IMG/VR virus record: IMGVR_UViG_3300020172_002377
Location: 1 to 30,792 of that record
Length of the DNA stretch: 30,792 nt
Strand: one strand, 5' to 3'
Source: a virus
Part shown: piece after piece, positions 20,153-30,792 of the stretch
Layout: the number at the start of each line of letters is the position of its first letter
Position numbering within the stretch: position 1 is the first letter of the stretch
The notes under the pieces: model-generated
Databases searched by the model: none
What the model saw: the letters and a program-made list of their open reading frames with translations, nothing else
Told to the model about the DNA's origin: nothing
Position numbers and translations under genes: made by a program

Positions 20153-22024
20153 ATGAGCAAAATCATCGGTATCGATTTGGGTACTACTAATAGCTGTGTA
20201 GCAGTAATCGAGAACGGCACAGCAAAAGTAATAGAAAATTCAGAAGGCACACGTACTACACCTAGCATTGTAGCTTACACAGAAAACGAAATTCTCGTTG
20301 GTGCTCCAGCTAAACGTCAAGCAGTAACAAATCCTAAAAATACAATCTACGCAGCCAAGCGTCTCATTGGACGTAAGTTTGAAGAAAGTCAAAATCATCT
20401 TATGCCTTACGAAGTTGTAAAAGCATCTAATGGCGATGCGTGGATTAAGGCATTAGACAAAGAATTGGCTCCTCCGCAAGTCAGCGCAGAAGTGCTACGC
20501 AAAATGAAAAAGACTGCGGAAGACTATCTAGGTGAAGAAGTCACGCAAGCAGTTATCACAGTGCCTGCTTACTTTAATGATAGTCAACGCCAAGCAACTA
20601 AAGATGCTGGTAAAATTGCCGGCTTGGAAGTGTTACGTATTATCAATGAGCCAACTGCAGCAGCATTAGCATATGGCGTAGATAAAGAAAGTAAAGTAGA
20701 TAGAAAAGTTGCTGTCTACGACCTAGGCGGTGGTACATTCGATGTAAGTATTATTGAAATCGCCAATGTAGATGGCGATAAACAGATTGAAGTTCTTAGT
20801 ACAAATGGTGACACATCATTAGGCGGAGAAGATTTTGATAATCGTATCATTGATTATCTTGTTACCGAGTTTAAGAAAGAATCAGGTGTTGACTTAGGCA
20901 AAGACGTCATGGCATTACAACGTCTAAAAGAAGCAGCAGAACGTACTAAGATAGAACTAAGCAATAGCACACAGACAGACGTTAACTTGCCTTACATTAC
21001 TGCGGACGCAACAGGTCCTAAGCACATGAATATAAAAATGACTCGCGCTAAATTAGAAAGTCTGGTAGACGATCTGCTTCAGCGTAGTCTTACTCCTTGT
21101 CGTCAAGCATTGAAAGATGCAGGTATTACTGCCGCAGACATTGACGAAGTTATTCTTGTTGGCGGGCAGACACGTATGCCTAAAGTACAGGAAGAAGTTG
21201 AAAAACTTTTTGGCAGAGCTCCACGCAAAGATGTTAATCCAGATGAAGCAGTGGCAGTGGGCGCAGCAGTCCAAGGTGCTGTACTAGGCGGTGATCGTAA
21301 AGATGTGCTGTTACTAGACGTGACTCCGTTGAGTCTTGGTATCGAAACAATGGGCGGTATCTTTACCAAATTGATTAACAAGAATACTACTATTCCTACA
21401 AAACATAGCCAAGTATTTTCAACAGCAGACGATAATCAACCAGCTGTTACTATTAAGGTAGCACAAGGTGAAAGAGAAATGTTTGCCTATAATAAAATAC
21501 TAGGCGAATTTAATCTTGAAGGTATTGCTCCAGCACGTAGAGGAGTTCCTCAAATTGAAGTCAGTTTAGATATCGACGCCAATGGTATCATGCATGTCAG
21601 TGCTAAAGATAAAAACACCGGCAAAGAAAACAAGATCACTATTAAGTCAAATAGTGGCTTAACTGATGACGAAGTCCAACAAATGATTAAAGATGCTGAA
21701 GTTAATGCTGAAGCAGATAAGAAACAGCGTGAGGTTGTGGAAACAAGAAATCAAGCCGATGGCTTGCTTCACACTGTAAAAAATGATTTACAAGAAGTTG
21801 AAGATAAGTTGACTGAAGATCAAAAAACTTCAGTTAATCAGGCTATAACAGATTTAGAATCTGTTATAAATGGTGATGACGTAACAGTTATTACCGAAAA
21901 AGTGAATAACCTGTTTACAGCAAGTCAGGTTATTCAACAGGCTAAGTCAACAACTTCCGATGAATCCACTGATACTGCTCAAACAGTAGATGCTGAATTC
22001 AAAGAAGTTAAAGACGCAGCTTAA
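20153..22024 (+). CDS. dnaK: Hsp70 chaperone DnaK
   Basis: The protein has 623 residues, full length. The ATPase domain shows [44 protein letters not shown] and [11 protein letters not shown]. The substrate domain starts near 385 ([17 protein letters not shown]). The helical lid ends in [10 protein letters not shown], so even the conserved C-terminal tail is kept. No DnaJ or GrpE gene is in the window, so host partners are probably used. It may fold virion proteins or work with the phage IscU, whose LPPVK motif is the DnaK/HscA-type contact. Phage-encoded DnaK is rare. Confidence 0.97.
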
Positions 22025-22025
22025 T

Positions 22026-22079
22026 AATGTGTGACGCTATGGGTTACACATTTGTTCTTGCTTAATTAAGGAGAAAATT
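22026..22079 (+). promoter_or_regulatory. groES leader: hairpin plus shared chaperone module
   Basis: Stem AATGTGTGAC/GTTACACATT (22026-22035 and 22043-22052, one G-U pair) with a 7-base loop, followed within 5 bases by CTTGCTTAATTAAGGAG. The layout matches the dnaK and hsp20 leaders. Confidence 0.65.
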
Positions 22080-23994
<1,915 letters not shown>

Positions 23995-24009
23995 TTGTCT
24001 TTTTAGTAG

Positions 24010-24017
24010 TATAAATA
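24010..24017 (+). promoter_or_regulatory. Late-promoter-like box TATAAATA
   Basis: An exact T4 late consensus between groEL and hsp20. The start would fall within the hairpin 24016-24050. Confidence 0.5.
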
Positions 24018-24077
24018 TTTGTGCGGTGCCCAGGTGGGGCCGCACAAATAATTCTTGCTTAATTTAAGGAGAAAAAA
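24016..24077 (+). promoter_or_regulatory. hsp20 leader: strong hairpin plus shared chaperone module
   Basis: A perfect 11-bp stem TATTTGTGCGG/CCGCACAAATA (24016-24026 and 24040-24050) with a G/C-rich inner loop that can pair further. Then CTTGCTTAATTTAAGGAG leads to ATG 24078. There is no T-run, so it is not a standard terminator. Confidence 0.65.
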
Positions 24078-24518
24078 ATGACGCAATTAACACGTTTTGA
24101 CACAACTGCTCTAAACAGAGCACTAGTAGGTTTCGATAGACTTTTTGATACATTTGAAAGTAGATTCGCAAACCAATTAAATTCTAATTATCCTCCACAC
24201 AACATCGTCAAGACCGATGACACACATTATCAAATCGAAATCGCAATAGCTGGATTTAAAAAAGATGAGATACATGTAGAAATCGAACAAGAGATGTTGA
24301 CAGTTAGAGGAGAGTCTGAAGCAAGTGATGATTCAAATACACGACAATATCTACATAGAGGGTTGAGCAGTCGTAGCTTTCTAAGAAGCTGGCAACTAGC
24401 TGAACACATGATTGTAAATGGAGCTGAAATTAAGGACGGTGTACTGACAATCAGTTTGGAGTACATTATTCCAGAAGAAAAGAAAGCTCGAGTAATTGAC
24501 ATTGTAGAAATTAAGTAA
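24078..24518 (+). CDS. Small heat-shock protein Hsp20
   Basis: The protein has 146 residues. The alpha-crystallin domain spans about 35-145, with YQIEIAIAGFKKDEIHVEI, LTVRGE and ADGVLTISL-type strand (KDGVLTISLEYIIPEE). The N-terminus TRFDTTALNRALVGFDRLF is that of IbpA-type proteins. It holds unfolded proteins for refolding. It follows groEL and shares the chaperone leader. T4-like cyanophages also often carry Hsp20. Confidence 0.93.
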   Translation: MTQLTRFDTTALNRALVGFDRLFDTFESRFANQLNSNYPPHNIVKTDDTHYQIEIAIAGFKKDEIHVEIEQEMLTVRGESEASDDSNTRQYLHRGLSSRSFLRSWQLAEHMIVNGAEIKDGVLTISLEYIIPEEKKARVIDIVEIK

Positions 24519-24524
24519 TATAAT
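24496..24524 (+). promoter_or_regulatory. Consensus sigma70-type promoter for clpS operon
   Basis: TTGACA (24496-24501), a 17-base spacer and TATAAT (24519-24524): both boxes perfect. It lies over the end of hsp20. The start near 24531 falls within the hairpin below. Confidence 0.8.
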
Positions 24525-24549
24525 ATAGGGGAAGGCAACTTCCCCTATA
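24524..24549 (+). other. Perfect hairpin with GCAA tetraloop before clpS
   Basis: The stem TATAGGGGAAG/CTTCCCCTATA (11 bp) is capped by GCAA, a GNRA tetraloop. No T-run follows, so it may mark an mRNA end or stabilise the transcript rather than terminate. Confidence 0.7.
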
Positions 24550-24569
24550 CCACAGCTTTGGAGATTAAA

Positions 24570-24875
24570 ATGAACGCAGAATCCGATATTAAAATCGATG
24601 AAAAAGTTAAACAAAAAATTCAAGAACCTAAACATTGGAAGGTAATTTTCTTAAATGATGAATATACCCCAATGGATTTTGTCATACAAGTTCTTCAAGA
24701 AGTCTTTAAGCACAGCCATGACACTGCTACAAATATAACTATGCAAGTACATAACGAAGGTAGTGGAATAGCCGGTGTATACACATTCGAGATAGCAGAA
24801 GTTAAAGCAGTAGAAGCTACTACTCTAGCTCGCAGCAGTGGCTTTCCACTTCAAGTTAAAATGGAGGAAGAATGA
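24570..24875 (+). CDS. clpS: ClpS adaptor of the N-degron pathway
   Basis: The protein has 101 residues. I chose ATG 24570 with TTTGGAGA upstream. KHWKVIFLNDEYTPMDFVIQ contains the substrate-pocket residues Asn29, Asp30 and Glu31; His61 lies in MQVHNEGSGIAGVY. It would deliver N-end-rule substrates to host ClpAP. It heads a tight operon with heme oxygenase (ATGA overlap) and bilin reductase. A variable N-terminal extension is short, as usual. Confidence 0.93.
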   Translation: MNAESDIKIDEKVKQKIQEPKHWKVIFLNDEYTPMDFVIQVLQEVFKHSHDTATNITMQVHNEGSGIAGVYTFEIAEVKAVEATTLARSSGFPLQVKMEEE

Positions 24876-25414
24876 GCCTTAAAGAACTTACCAAGGATTT
24901 ACACACAGACGCGGAAAGAACAATATTTGCTAAAAAATTATTAACGGGTGTGCTAACTGACGAAGAGTATGCTAATTATCTTTGGCAAATGCTACTTGTT
25001 TACAATGGAATAGAAACCGCGGCGAAAAGTCAAGATATGCTTAAAAACTTACCTGACATCGAACGAACCCATAAAATTTATCAAGACTGTATAGAACTAG
25101 TTGGACCCAATCATAATCTTAAGTGGTTGCCTGTAGTTATAGAATACTATCAATATTTGTTATCTTTAAATTATAACGCAGAACGTAGACACTTGGTTAA
25201 GGCACACTTGTATTGCCGTCATATGGGAGACCTATACGGCGGACAGATGATAGCTAAAAAAGTTTCAGGCAAAGGCCGTTTCTATGAATTCAAAGATGCT
25301 GAAAATTTAAAAACAGCTATTAGAGCAGAACTAACTGATGACCTTGGAGACGAAGCTCGTGTAGCTTTTGAATGGGCTATTAAAATTATGAAAGCATTGA
25401 ACAGAGATGAGTGA
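24872..25414 (+). CDS. Heme oxygenase
   Basis: The protein has 180 residues, shorter than cyanobacterial enzymes. The proximal heme ligand is His11 in DLHTDAER, and the distal helix is RHMGDLYGGQ (Gly119, Asp120, Gly123, Gly124). It opens heme to biliverdin, iron and CO using reductant and oxygen. Overlap with clpS (ATGA) and with the bilin reductase (8 bases) shows coupled expression. It is placed like ho1-type genes beside pebS or pcyX in marine phages. Confidence 0.9.
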   Translation: MSLKELTKDLHTDAERTIFAKKLLTGVLTDEEYANYLWQMLLVYNGIETAAKSQDMLKNLPDIERTHKIYQDCIELVGPNHNLKWLPVVIEYYQYLLSLNYNAERRHLVKAHLYCRHMGDLYGGQMIAKKVSGKGRFYEFKDAENLKTAIRAELTDDLGDEARVAFEWAIKIMKALNRDE

Positions 25415-26087
25415 TGTTTGGAACACATTAATTGACATAAAAGAAAAATTTGAAAAGAAATTCTCAGATGTAGGTATGGAAGTTTTTGAACCTGGAATGG
25501 ATAGATTTAATCAACCAGGCTGGGTTAATCGTGTATGGACTAGTACATTCTTTCGCAGAGCCCATATAGATGTAGTAGATGCTCGTGCTACTAAAGGACT
25601 GTGGATGATGCACTGCTGTGTGTTCCCGCATTTAGATAATCCTGCTCCTATCTTTGGTTACGATGTTATAGCAGGTAAACACAAAATCACCGGCTGCTTC
25701 CATGACTTTAGCCCAGCAGGAGATCATGATCATCCAATGATAGATTGGTTTGCCAGCGAAGCAGCGAAATTACAATGGAATAAGACTCGTAAACTACCGG
25801 AGTGGGCAGAACGTATTTTTACGGGTAGTATGATAGCCGCAGGTAATGTACAGGATCCAAGCGAACTAGAGCAGATCACTACAATTGCTGCTAAAAACTT
25901 AGATTTCTATATTGCTAACATTATGGATTCTGCTCATAGTCATTCGGGTACTAAAGAACACCAGAATTACTACTGCGAAAATCAAAAGCAAAACCCCCAT
26001 ACACCCAAGGTTATGACTAGTTTAGGACTTAGCGAAGATGATGTACGTGTTTTCATCCAGGATTGCTTGTTCCCAGAAATACGCTAA
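25407..26087 (+). CDS. pcyX: Ferredoxin-dependent bilin reductase, PcyX-like
   Basis: The protein has 226 residues. Family motifs are FFRRAHIDVVDAR, MMHCCVFPHLDNPAPIFGYD, YYCENQKQNPHTPKVM and CLFPEI. At the positions of PcyA Glu76, His88 and Asp105 I read Asp55, His69 and Asp86. Keeping the His points to PcyA/PcyX rather than PebS, which has Asn there as I recall. The enzyme reduces biliverdin from the adjacent heme oxygenase to a coloured bilin, PEB for known PcyX. No ferredoxin gene is in the window. Choice of subfamily is moderately sure. Confidence 0.82.
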   Translation: MSDVWNTLIDIKEKFEKKFSDVGMEVFEPGMDRFNQPGWVNRVWTSTFFRRAHIDVVDARATKGLWMMHCCVFPHLDNPAPIFGYDVIAGKHKITGCFHDFSPAGDHDHPMIDWFASEAAKLQWNKTRKLPEWAERIFTGSMIAAGNVQDPSELEQITTIAAKNLDFYIANIMDSAHSHSGTKEHQNYYCENQKQNPHTPKVMTSLGLSEDDVRVFIQDCLFPEIR

Positions 26088-28575: not shown

Positions 28576-29535
28576 ATGAGAGCAAATGAATTTTTAAGCG
28601 AGTTAGTTACTCGTGCTGAAACTACCGAACACTTGATCAAGCGTTTAAACTATGCTGCTGATCTTTGTGACCAAATGGGCGATGTTCCTTTACTGGTAAG
28701 AGATTTTAGGACTGGGCTTGGAAAGGAAACAGTACTGGCCAAGGTTATTAATCGAACAGAAAAAGAAGGCGCAAGAAGTCCTGGGTATGTTAAAGGCGGT
28801 GTTGGCAAGGAAGGACAAACAGCAATACTAGAAAAACTAGGCATAGAAAATCCTGTGTTTACCAAAATGGATTTACCGGATAGCACATTTGCCTTTCACG
28901 GTGATCCACACATATTCATACCTCCTCCAGGCAGTAATGTATACTGGAGTCCTAAAATTGAAGATCTGGGCGGACAACGTCTAGCCGGTGAAGAGAGAGA
29001 ACTTGGAAAAACTACTGTAGTAGGATGGATGGCTAAAGAAGCAGACAAGTGGGCAGCAACTTATCAAAATGAAATGCCTACAGAGTTTATACGTAATGAA
29101 GTTATATGGGATTGTGAGTATTACTATCTGTTAAACATACAAGAGTTCCTACATCGTTTTAGTGGTAAAGCAAATAAGATGAGTCTAACTGCTGGCAGTG
29201 TTGGCAGTAAAAAGATTGATCCTAGTGTATGGGCAGAGCGTGTTCGTTCGTACAGTGATGTTGCTAATTTTCTACGTAAGTATGGCGTAAGTTATGTACG
29301 CTGGTATCAGGACAATGTAGAAGGAAAGAGCCCAGGAGAAAGACAATCAGCAATGGCTAACAAGCCTCAAAAGCCAACCTGGGAAGTAAAATCAGAAACT
29401 GGTCGTAGTGTTGCAGTATCAGCCAACGATGAGCAAGAAGCAATTTATCAAGCACTGAACAGCAGAGGTGCCACTGGACAACATGGTACATTCCCTAACG
29501 GCAAAGACAGCATTGCAAGTGTTGAAAAGAAATGA
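28576..29535 (+). CDS. Unknown protein with capsid-targeting-like leader
   Basis: The protein has 319 residues. The start MRANEFLSE ends LSE. A mid-region block reads DSTFAFHGDPHIFIPPPGSN then VYWSPKIEDLGG. The rest is helical and charged. The last 45 residues (TWEVKSETGRSVAVSANDEQ, then EAIYQAL) look like a small add-on domain. I cannot name a family. T4 Alt, an injected ADP-ribosyltransferase, has a similar leader, but no R-S-E triad was identified. It lies between the two metallopeptidases and overlaps the second (ATGA). Confidence 0.6.
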   Translation: MRANEFLSELVTRAETTEHLIKRLNYAADLCDQMGDVPLLVRDFRTGLGKETVLAKVINRTEKEGARSPGYVKGGVGKEGQTAILEKLGIENPVFTKMDLPDSTFAFHGDPHIFIPPPGSNVYWSPKIEDLGGQRLAGEERELGKTTVVGWMAKEADKWAATYQNEMPTEFIRNEVIWDCEYYYLLNIQEFLHRFSGKANKMSLTAGSVGSKKIDPSVWAERVRSYSDVANFLRKYGVSYVRWYQDNVEGKSPGERQSAMANKPQKPTWEVKSETGRSVAVSANDEQEAIYQALNSRGATGQHGTFPNGKDSIASVEKK

Positions 29536-30131
29536 AGATATATGAACTTACAGAGTCTGTTGACGATAGCAAACTAATAAACAAAATTGCCAACAGTGTA
29601 GCCAAGTGGATGCACAAAACTGAACCTGCTGAACACCCTGTACAAACAATTGAAAAGATGACTGGCATTAAGGGTACGCCATTAAGCAAAGTAAAAATCG
29701 CCTTTGACTATCTTGATGGAGATAAAGCAGCAGAGTTCCATAGAGAACGTAATTTAATTGTGGTAAATCTCAATGACTGGCGCGATGGTGATTATGCTAC
29801 TATTGCTGAGTATGTAGCACACGAACTAAGACATGCGTTAGACGATGTAAAGTTTAAAGGAAAACATCATATTAGTTTTCATGCAGGACAGGACAGATAT
29901 CAACAGCCTAAAGTCAAAGACGATCCGTACTGGAGTAAGCCTAGTGAAATAAATGCTAGGGTACAGCAGGCTTTACACAATGTAGATTATATCAAAAGAG
30001 ACAACCCAGGAGCCACAGTACAAGAACTATGGCCTGAAATTAAAGATATGTTAGATCAACTTAAAATAACAGAGTACCCTGGCTATCAACGAGTTGTTAA
30101 ACGTGTTTTAGCTTACGCCGAAAAAGATTAA
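29532..30131 (+). CDS. Zinc metallopeptidase-like protein with capsid-targeting-like leader
   Basis: The protein has 199 residues. HExxH is AHELRHALDD (His97, Glu98, His101); the third ligand may be Glu139 in KPSEINARVQQAL. The start MKIYELTE ends in LTE. The arrangement is unlike the other metallopeptidase, so the two are not recent duplicates. It is convergent with the - strand gene, and their stops overlap by 4 bases. The substrate is unknown. Confidence 0.78.
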   Translation: MKIYELTESVDDSKLINKIANSVAKWMHKTEPAEHPVQTIEKMTGIKGTPLSKVKIAFDYLDGDKAAEFHRERNLIVVNLNDWRDGDYATIAEYVAHELRHALDDVKFKGKHHISFHAGQDRYQQPKVKDDPYWSKPSEINARVQQALHNVDYIKRDNPGATVQELWPEIKDMLDQLKITEYPGYQRVVKRVLAYAEKD

Positions 30132-30503: not shown

Positions 30504-30632
30504 ATGGGTACAGAACAACTATATCTAATTATTGGATTTTTATTAGGTACTATGTTGACTGGATGTTTACTAACAATAATGTTTATACTGTGGTACGAAC
30601 ATTATCATAAAAACCCAATTGATAAAGAATAA
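30504..30632 (+). CDS. Small single-span membrane protein
   Basis: The protein has 42 residues: a short N-terminus, a hydrophobic segment at about residues 8-29 (LIIGFLLGTMLTGCLLTIMF) and a charged tail (YEHYHKNPIDKE). No strong ribosome binding site is seen, and the start is only seven bases after the promoter box, so it may be nearly leaderless. The Cys in the segment is not a clear lipobox. Function unknown. Confidence 0.5.
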   Translation: MGTEQLYLIIGFLLGTMLTGCLLTIMFILWYEHYHKNPIDKE

Positions 30633-30644
30633 AAGAATTGTTGT

Positions 30645-30792
30645 AATTCCTTCAAAGCGAAGGCATTCTGGACGAGGGTTCGATTCCCTCCATCTCCACC
30701 AGAAACACATTTGCAGACCGTGCCACTCCTTGTGAAAAGGATCTTACTGCAGGACGAAGTGTGTTTCTGATGGGGGTGACAAGGTTTCGACA
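30645..30792 (+). ncRNA. ssrA: Circularly permuted tmRNA, acceptor piece and start of coding piece (3' partial)
   Basis: The tRNA-like 3' part comes first: stem CCTTC/GAAGG (30649-30663), T arm GAGGG-TTCGATT-CCCTC (30674-30690), acceptor strand CATCTCC (30691-30697), then A and CCA (30698-30701). The 5' part follows: GGGGGTG (30772-30778) pairs with CATCTCC, including the G3-U pair used for alanine charging, then ACAAGGTTTCGACA. The spacer 30702-30771 begins and ends with complementary ends (30701-30711 with 30758-30768). The order is that of two-piece tmRNA in alphaproteobacteria and cyanobacteria. The tag-coding part lies beyond the window. The left boundary is approximate. Confidence 0.88.

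Follow-up and report, generated by a model that had tools for sequence, protein, structure and literature searches.

What is the RNA gene that is cut off at the end of this virus record, and what is the spacer inside it? The stretch of DNA analysed here (hereafter the window) is a virus record of 30,792 bases and represents a whole contig. Its last 154 bases (30639-30792, + strand) contain the first half of a circularly permuted two-piece tmRNA gene. We consider it very probable that these bases are one half of a beta-type permuted tmRNA gene from a large phage, that the contig end cuts off the rest, that the gene would give a two-piece ribosome-rescue RNA and that its intervening sequence (IVS) is an exchanged module. 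Phage-encoded two-piece tmRNA has already been published, and the core of the finding is known (PMC9004378). The spacer turns out to be more unusual than the phage two-piece tmRNA itself.

All parts of the gene lie on the + strand. In gene order, the acceptor (3') piece comes first (30639-30701), reaching from the start of the RF04321 match to an encoded ACCA. It harbors a T-arm at 30674-30690 with the stem GAGGG/CCCTC and the loop TTCGATT, read from the sequence and paired in the cmscan alignment. The 3' acceptor strand follows at 30691-30701 and consists of CATCTCC (30691-30697), whose partners covary between phages, and ACCA (30698-30701). The IVS occupies 30702-30771 and is 70 nt long with complementary ends, as delimited by sequence, fold, covariation and family members. 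The 5' piece (30772-30792), assigned from sequence and Rfam, starts with GGGGGTG at 30772-30778, after which the letters ACAAGGTTTCGACA run as far as the window end; the D-loop segment ...GGTTTCGACA is cut there. The two acceptor strands form seven standard pairs, namely G1-C72, G2-C71, G3-U70, G4-C69, G5-U68, U6-A67 and G7-C66. The G5-U68 pair is a wobble in the window, where the nearest relatives have A-U. The record ends at 30792 and so stops short of the tag frame, of the pseudoknots and of the pairing that joins the two pieces. The initial annotation had described an acceptor half preceding the GGGGGTG half, a 7-bp acceptor stem with the G3-U pair and a 70-base spacer with complementary ends, and each of these was confirmed.

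That annotation had also proposed a search with covariance models. RF04321 (tmRNA_permuted) gave 71.6 bits, above its gathering score of 47, with E values of 3.9e-13 and 4.2e-12 in two runs, and another search mode gave 56.3 bits, above the cut-off too. The match covers model positions 1-107 of 213, its 3' truncation being caused by the contig end alone. RF01850 (beta_tmRNA) gave 77.1 bits (gathering score 84) over half of the model, while complete relatives reach 133-188 bits. ARAGORN reported no tmRNA on the window because the gene is cut and lacks its tag half there. Piece order, the 7-bp stem with G3-U70 and the RF04321 score all place the gene among the permuted two-piece tmRNAs. Both Rfam families share with the window the order of acceptor piece, IVS and 5' piece, the acceptor stem, the T-arm, G3-U70 and the encoded CCA. 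Compared with bacterial permuted genes, the window gene is phage-borne and its IVS is 70 nt long, as against about 4-40 nt in the few bacterial genes read. It also differs from cellular permuted tmRNA in the core of its acceptor half, which was not found in cellular genomes.

The acceptor stem together with the IVS folds at -37.0 kcal/mol, compared with -22.8 ± 3.1 kcal/mol in shuffles (z = -4.6). The IVS family of the window is common to at least 13 other viral contigs, and every alignable case lies inside a permuted tmRNA. These viral loci belong to other phages, so that they do not continue the window to the right. Three acceptor-stem types accompany it, CATCTCC/GGGGATG (GGGGGTG in the window), CTGGTCC/GGGCCAG and CACCTCC/GGGGGTG; the IVS family is kept while the flanking acceptor stems vary. 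Across 11 sequences of the family, 99.7% of the cells of the extended hairpin were paired and two-sided changes occurred at 11 pairs. The covariation score was 0.338 (n = 11), as against 0.138 ± 0.017 in shuffled alignments and at most 0.091 when the pairing was slid. The extraction of these 11 sequences required seven acceptor pairs, which makes the covariation of the acceptor stem partly circular, while the IVS stem was unselected for pairing. An unfiltered count of acceptor pairing was unusable, as GATGGG was caught in the wrong register, and the acceptor covariation refers to the set filtered for seven pairs. Judged from the compensatory changes in this alignment, the hairpin is under compensatory selection.

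We propose that the precursor folds with its acceptor stem prolonged by the long IVS hairpin. Host tRNA-processing enzymes would then cut at the CCA and at the 5' end of GGGGGTG, releasing the IVS, and the resulting two-piece tmRNA would receive alanine by virtue of its G3-U70 pair. With SmpB of the host, the phage tmRNA may free ribosomes that stall in the infected cell and mark their products with a degradation tag, presumably to the benefit of the phage. SmpB was absent from 19 related virus records, most of them fragments; hence SmpB would have to come from the host.

The spacer was compared over 170 permuted genes extracted from all loci, nearly all of them from phages, which contained 148 distinct IVSs of 26-248 nt. 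At least eight complementary end pairs were present in 83% of the IVSs but in 1.2% of shuffles. The borders of the IVSs are alike, yet the IVSs fall into 87 groups at 75% identity. Among the 161 full genes, IVS identity correlated with the identity of the acceptor half at r = 0.13 and with that of the tag piece at r = 0.07; the correlation between acceptor half and tag piece was 0.39. In 142 gene pairs the IVSs were at most 55% identical despite at least 95% identity in the acceptor half and at least 80% in the tag piece. Conversely, the tag pieces of 11 gene pairs were at most 65% identical despite IVSs of at least 85% identity. The IVS is also different in each syntenic relative of the window, with 70 nt in the window, 55 nt in L095, 118 nt in L097 and 208 nt in L096. 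As far as sequence comparison can tell, this shows phage IVSs to be exchangeable modules, apparently swapped inside this gene like cassettes.

Conserved IVSs might instead be inherited vertically and only evolve at another speed than the mature halves, as the internal conservation of the IVS families and the capacity of acceptor stems to shift by compensatory steps would allow. We regard this as unlikely. The phage loci L067 and L080 share 98.5% identity over the 1,027 bases before the IVS and 95% after it, and their mature parts are identical, yet their IVSs are unrelated (209 and 122 nt). Moreover, one and the same IVS was found in genes with much less similar mature parts.

Some of the exchanged IVSs appear to contain small protein genes. 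An ORF of at least 24 aa (24-73 aa) with a Shine-Dalgarno sequence and an ATG, ending within the IVS, was present in 14 of the 148 distinct IVSs, whereas 0.26 were expected from dinucleotide shuffles; for ORFs of at least 40 aa, five were seen against 0.05 expected. A family of 24-aa membrane peptides has seven members, which differ at 263 third, 137 first and 68 second codon positions; codons with a single change were synonymous in 171 cases and non-synonymous in 63, these being pairwise counts that are not independent. A 64-aa ORF in L267 is 77% identical to that of L096 and L102, syntenic relatives of the window, with 23 differences at third positions and 9 and 8 at the others. The 73-aa ORF of L251 encodes a PGDYG protein (27.8 bits to PF14083, whose cut-off is 27), and 650 phage records contain matches to it. 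The L067 type of IVS contains an ORF of 61 aa.

Most of the ORF-bearing IVSs that were folded have a ribosome site AAGGA that starts 2-3 nt after the beginning of the IVS, with all of its positions paired in the predicted precursor. For four members of the 24-aa family, 4-5 of 6 positions are paired, and neither L097 nor the ORF selected for L258 had an AAGGA site in the folded set. From the pairing of the ribosome site we infer that translation of the IVS ORF and maturation of the tmRNA would exclude each other. On balance, we favor, with some reserve, a model in which the IVS is an exchange site for many modules traded by phages within the gene, each framed by a conserved fold-back stem and some with small genes whose ribosome site lies in the hairpin, so that production of the peptide and of the tmRNA would be mutually exclusive.

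In the window's own 70-nt IVS, no ORF with Shine-Dalgarno sequence and ATG was present. A frame without ATG stays open across the family when inspected by eye, but it was rejected as a gene since it has no ribosome site with an ATG, and the covarying inner hairpin also speaks against it. The IVS of the window is non-coding and structured, and its syntenic relatives have the 64-aa coding IVS at the equivalent place. The spacer of two-piece tmRNA has so far been regarded as discarded. If the phage spacer is an exchangeable slot and sometimes a protein gene with its start paired in the hairpin of the precursor, a single transcript would couple RNA processing with ribosome rescue and with the translation of a small phage protein.

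The sister contig L095/L104 is collinear with the window: most of the stretch from 10.8 to 30.5 kb aligns at about 79-83% identity, with gaps between the aligned parts and a lower value of 71% near 27.5 kb. At the equivalent place it carries a complete permuted tmRNA with a beta_tmRNA score of 133 bits and a frame ending ...ANDEAFALAA. A 199-aa protein of unknown family (29532-30131, +) serves as the synteny anchor with the sister contigs. L035 and L052 match the last 165 bases of the window at 93%, and their tag is ANDAFYGEDRLAA. Permuted tmRNA above the Rfam cut-off was present in 15 of 18 further related virus records, five of which had been picked for their tmRNA. Immediately 5' of the tmRNA, a 42-aa membrane-type ORF (30504-30632, +) has homologues of 42-67% identity in L105, L106, L107, L129, L277, L298, L271, L238 and L304, phage loci that had been fetched for tmRNA or DnaK.

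Two observations concern the tags and the composition of these genes. The tag frame given by ARAGORN in L095 (7110-7250) and L097 is unusually long, 26 aa, and reads ANVSTFKFWQSPVS[IV]AANDEAFALAA, conserved between both phages; long tag frames occur in other phages too. In the syntenic relative L096 (7791-8230), the tmRNA fits the alpha model (62.7 bits) and has a divergent acceptor half, yet its tag-coding stretch is nearly the same as in L095 and L097. The gene is thus a mosaic.

With the tag half past the contig end and the G5-U68 wobble, the tmRNA copy of the window could be defective. The view that the locus is a functionless fragment or decayed copy, picked up through faulty excision or recombination, would agree with the visibility of only half of the gene and with the tmRNA fragments known from prophages as remnants of integration sites (PMC9004378). 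We consider it very improbable. The gene breaks off exactly where the contig does, the hairpin is held by compensatory selection, and the collinear relatives have complete genes. Furthermore, four virus contigs (the window at 30792, L219, L226 and L039) stop within about 120 nt of one IVS, as assembly breaks would. Such ends at a shared IVS are probably assembly breaks arising from sequence common to many phages, and shared IVSs are a possible reason why phage contigs break in the tmRNA gene.

The half gene of a phage tmRNA also fits its surroundings. Phage families in the window include a ribonucleotide reductase, an exonuclease, an endolysin and a PAAR protein. DnaK, GroES and GroEL were recognised by sequence, and Pfam matches were obtained for HSP20, ClpS, heme oxygenase, bilin reductase and IscU/IscA-like proteins. 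That the record is bacterial or a genomic island, with the tmRNA as the host's own gene, is scarcely credible even with these DnaK, GroES/GroEL, ClpS, IscU/IscA-like and heme oxygenase genes, given the virus record, the phage-family genes just named, the tmRNA in related virus contigs of 107-365 kb and an acceptor half without an exact match in bacterial genomes, where the best tmRNA matches of the L052 phage gene reach 77-78% over about 100 bp, against 93% over 165 bp between L052 and the window. The claim that the tmRNA is phage-encoded is thus borne out by the virus record, the phage genes around it, the 15 positive records among the 18 related ones and the complete gene of the sister contig.

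The initial annotation had further suggested that the permuted form is the one used in the host lineage, and this part is not supported. Phage isolates from Pseudomonas aeruginosa, Xanthomonas, Stenotrophomonas and Acinetobacter carry permuted tmRNA genes that pass the RF04321 cut-off. These four bacterial lineages have one-piece tmRNA. This background is in line with an earlier report (PMC9004378). The isolates are Stenotrophomonas phage Marzo, Xanthomonas phages X1 and XacN1, Pseudomonas phage PaMx31 and Acinetobacter phage BUCT628, four of which also pass the beta_tmRNA cut-off. They differ from the window in belonging to other phage lineages and having other tags, and a tmRNA is annotated only in the record of Marzo. 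It is not safe to infer the host's tmRNA form from the window's permuted gene, and caution is needed in reading the tmRNA form of any host off its phages.

Assignment of a host through the acceptor half was attempted without success. Of about 85,000 bacterial and archaeal genomes, none contained its 39-base core exactly, and a loosened pattern matched a single one of them, an Accumulibacter MAG. With the L052 phage gene as query, the best tmRNA matches in a Burkholderiales sample were partial, 77-78% over 92-108 bp, compared with 93% over 165 bp between L052 and the window. As it is essentially missing from these cellular genomes, the acceptor half belongs to a phage lineage of the gene.

Among known systems, the Methylophilales phage Melnitz carries a two-piece ssrA, and 53 of 133 unique phage tmRNAs are two-piece, 50 of these from marine or aquatic samples (PMC9004378). 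Melnitz and Pelagibacter phage Mosig resemble the window as large marine phages with two-piece tmRNA. The Mosig tmRNA fits the alpha model RF01849 and has the tag GEDNFALAA, whereas the window fits the beta model best. The ssrA of Melnitz is reported to lie under a glutamine riboswitch; in the window none reached the threshold. The 2025 tmRNA database covers the permuted form and built RF04321, and it describes single cases of one IVS with a tRNA-Ala and one with a repetitive element (PMC11915505). These resemble the phage IVSs in being inserts within the spacer of a permuted tmRNA, but they are single cases, whereas the phage IVSs fall into many families, are exchanged between near-identical phages and in some cases hold protein-coding ORFs. 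In the literature searched, which lay outside most subscription journals, no report was found that phages exchange the IVS or use it for coding.

Several further genes in and near this locus were observed. Upstream of the tmRNA, DnaK, GroES, GroEL, HSP20 and the Clp protease adaptor ClpS stand together at 20153-24875; a tag from the window's tmRNA would direct proteins to Clp proteases, beside the phage's own chaperone and proteolysis set. A ROSE_3 RNA thermometer (44.4 bits, gathering score 43) lies at L095 1190-1256, roughly where the upstream region of the HSP20 gene would be in the sister phage, and nothing in the window scored above the gathering score for a ROSE thermometer. Downstream of the tmRNA in L095, the start of a PstS-like phosphate-binding protein was read by eye from 8076. 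At 24872-26087 of the window, a heme oxygenase is followed by a ferredoxin-dependent bilin reductase, the nearest isolate being Pelagibacter phage Mosig at 51% identity. Finally, IscU/NifU-like and IscA-like iron-sulphur scaffold genes stand side by side in this phage at 13200-13896.
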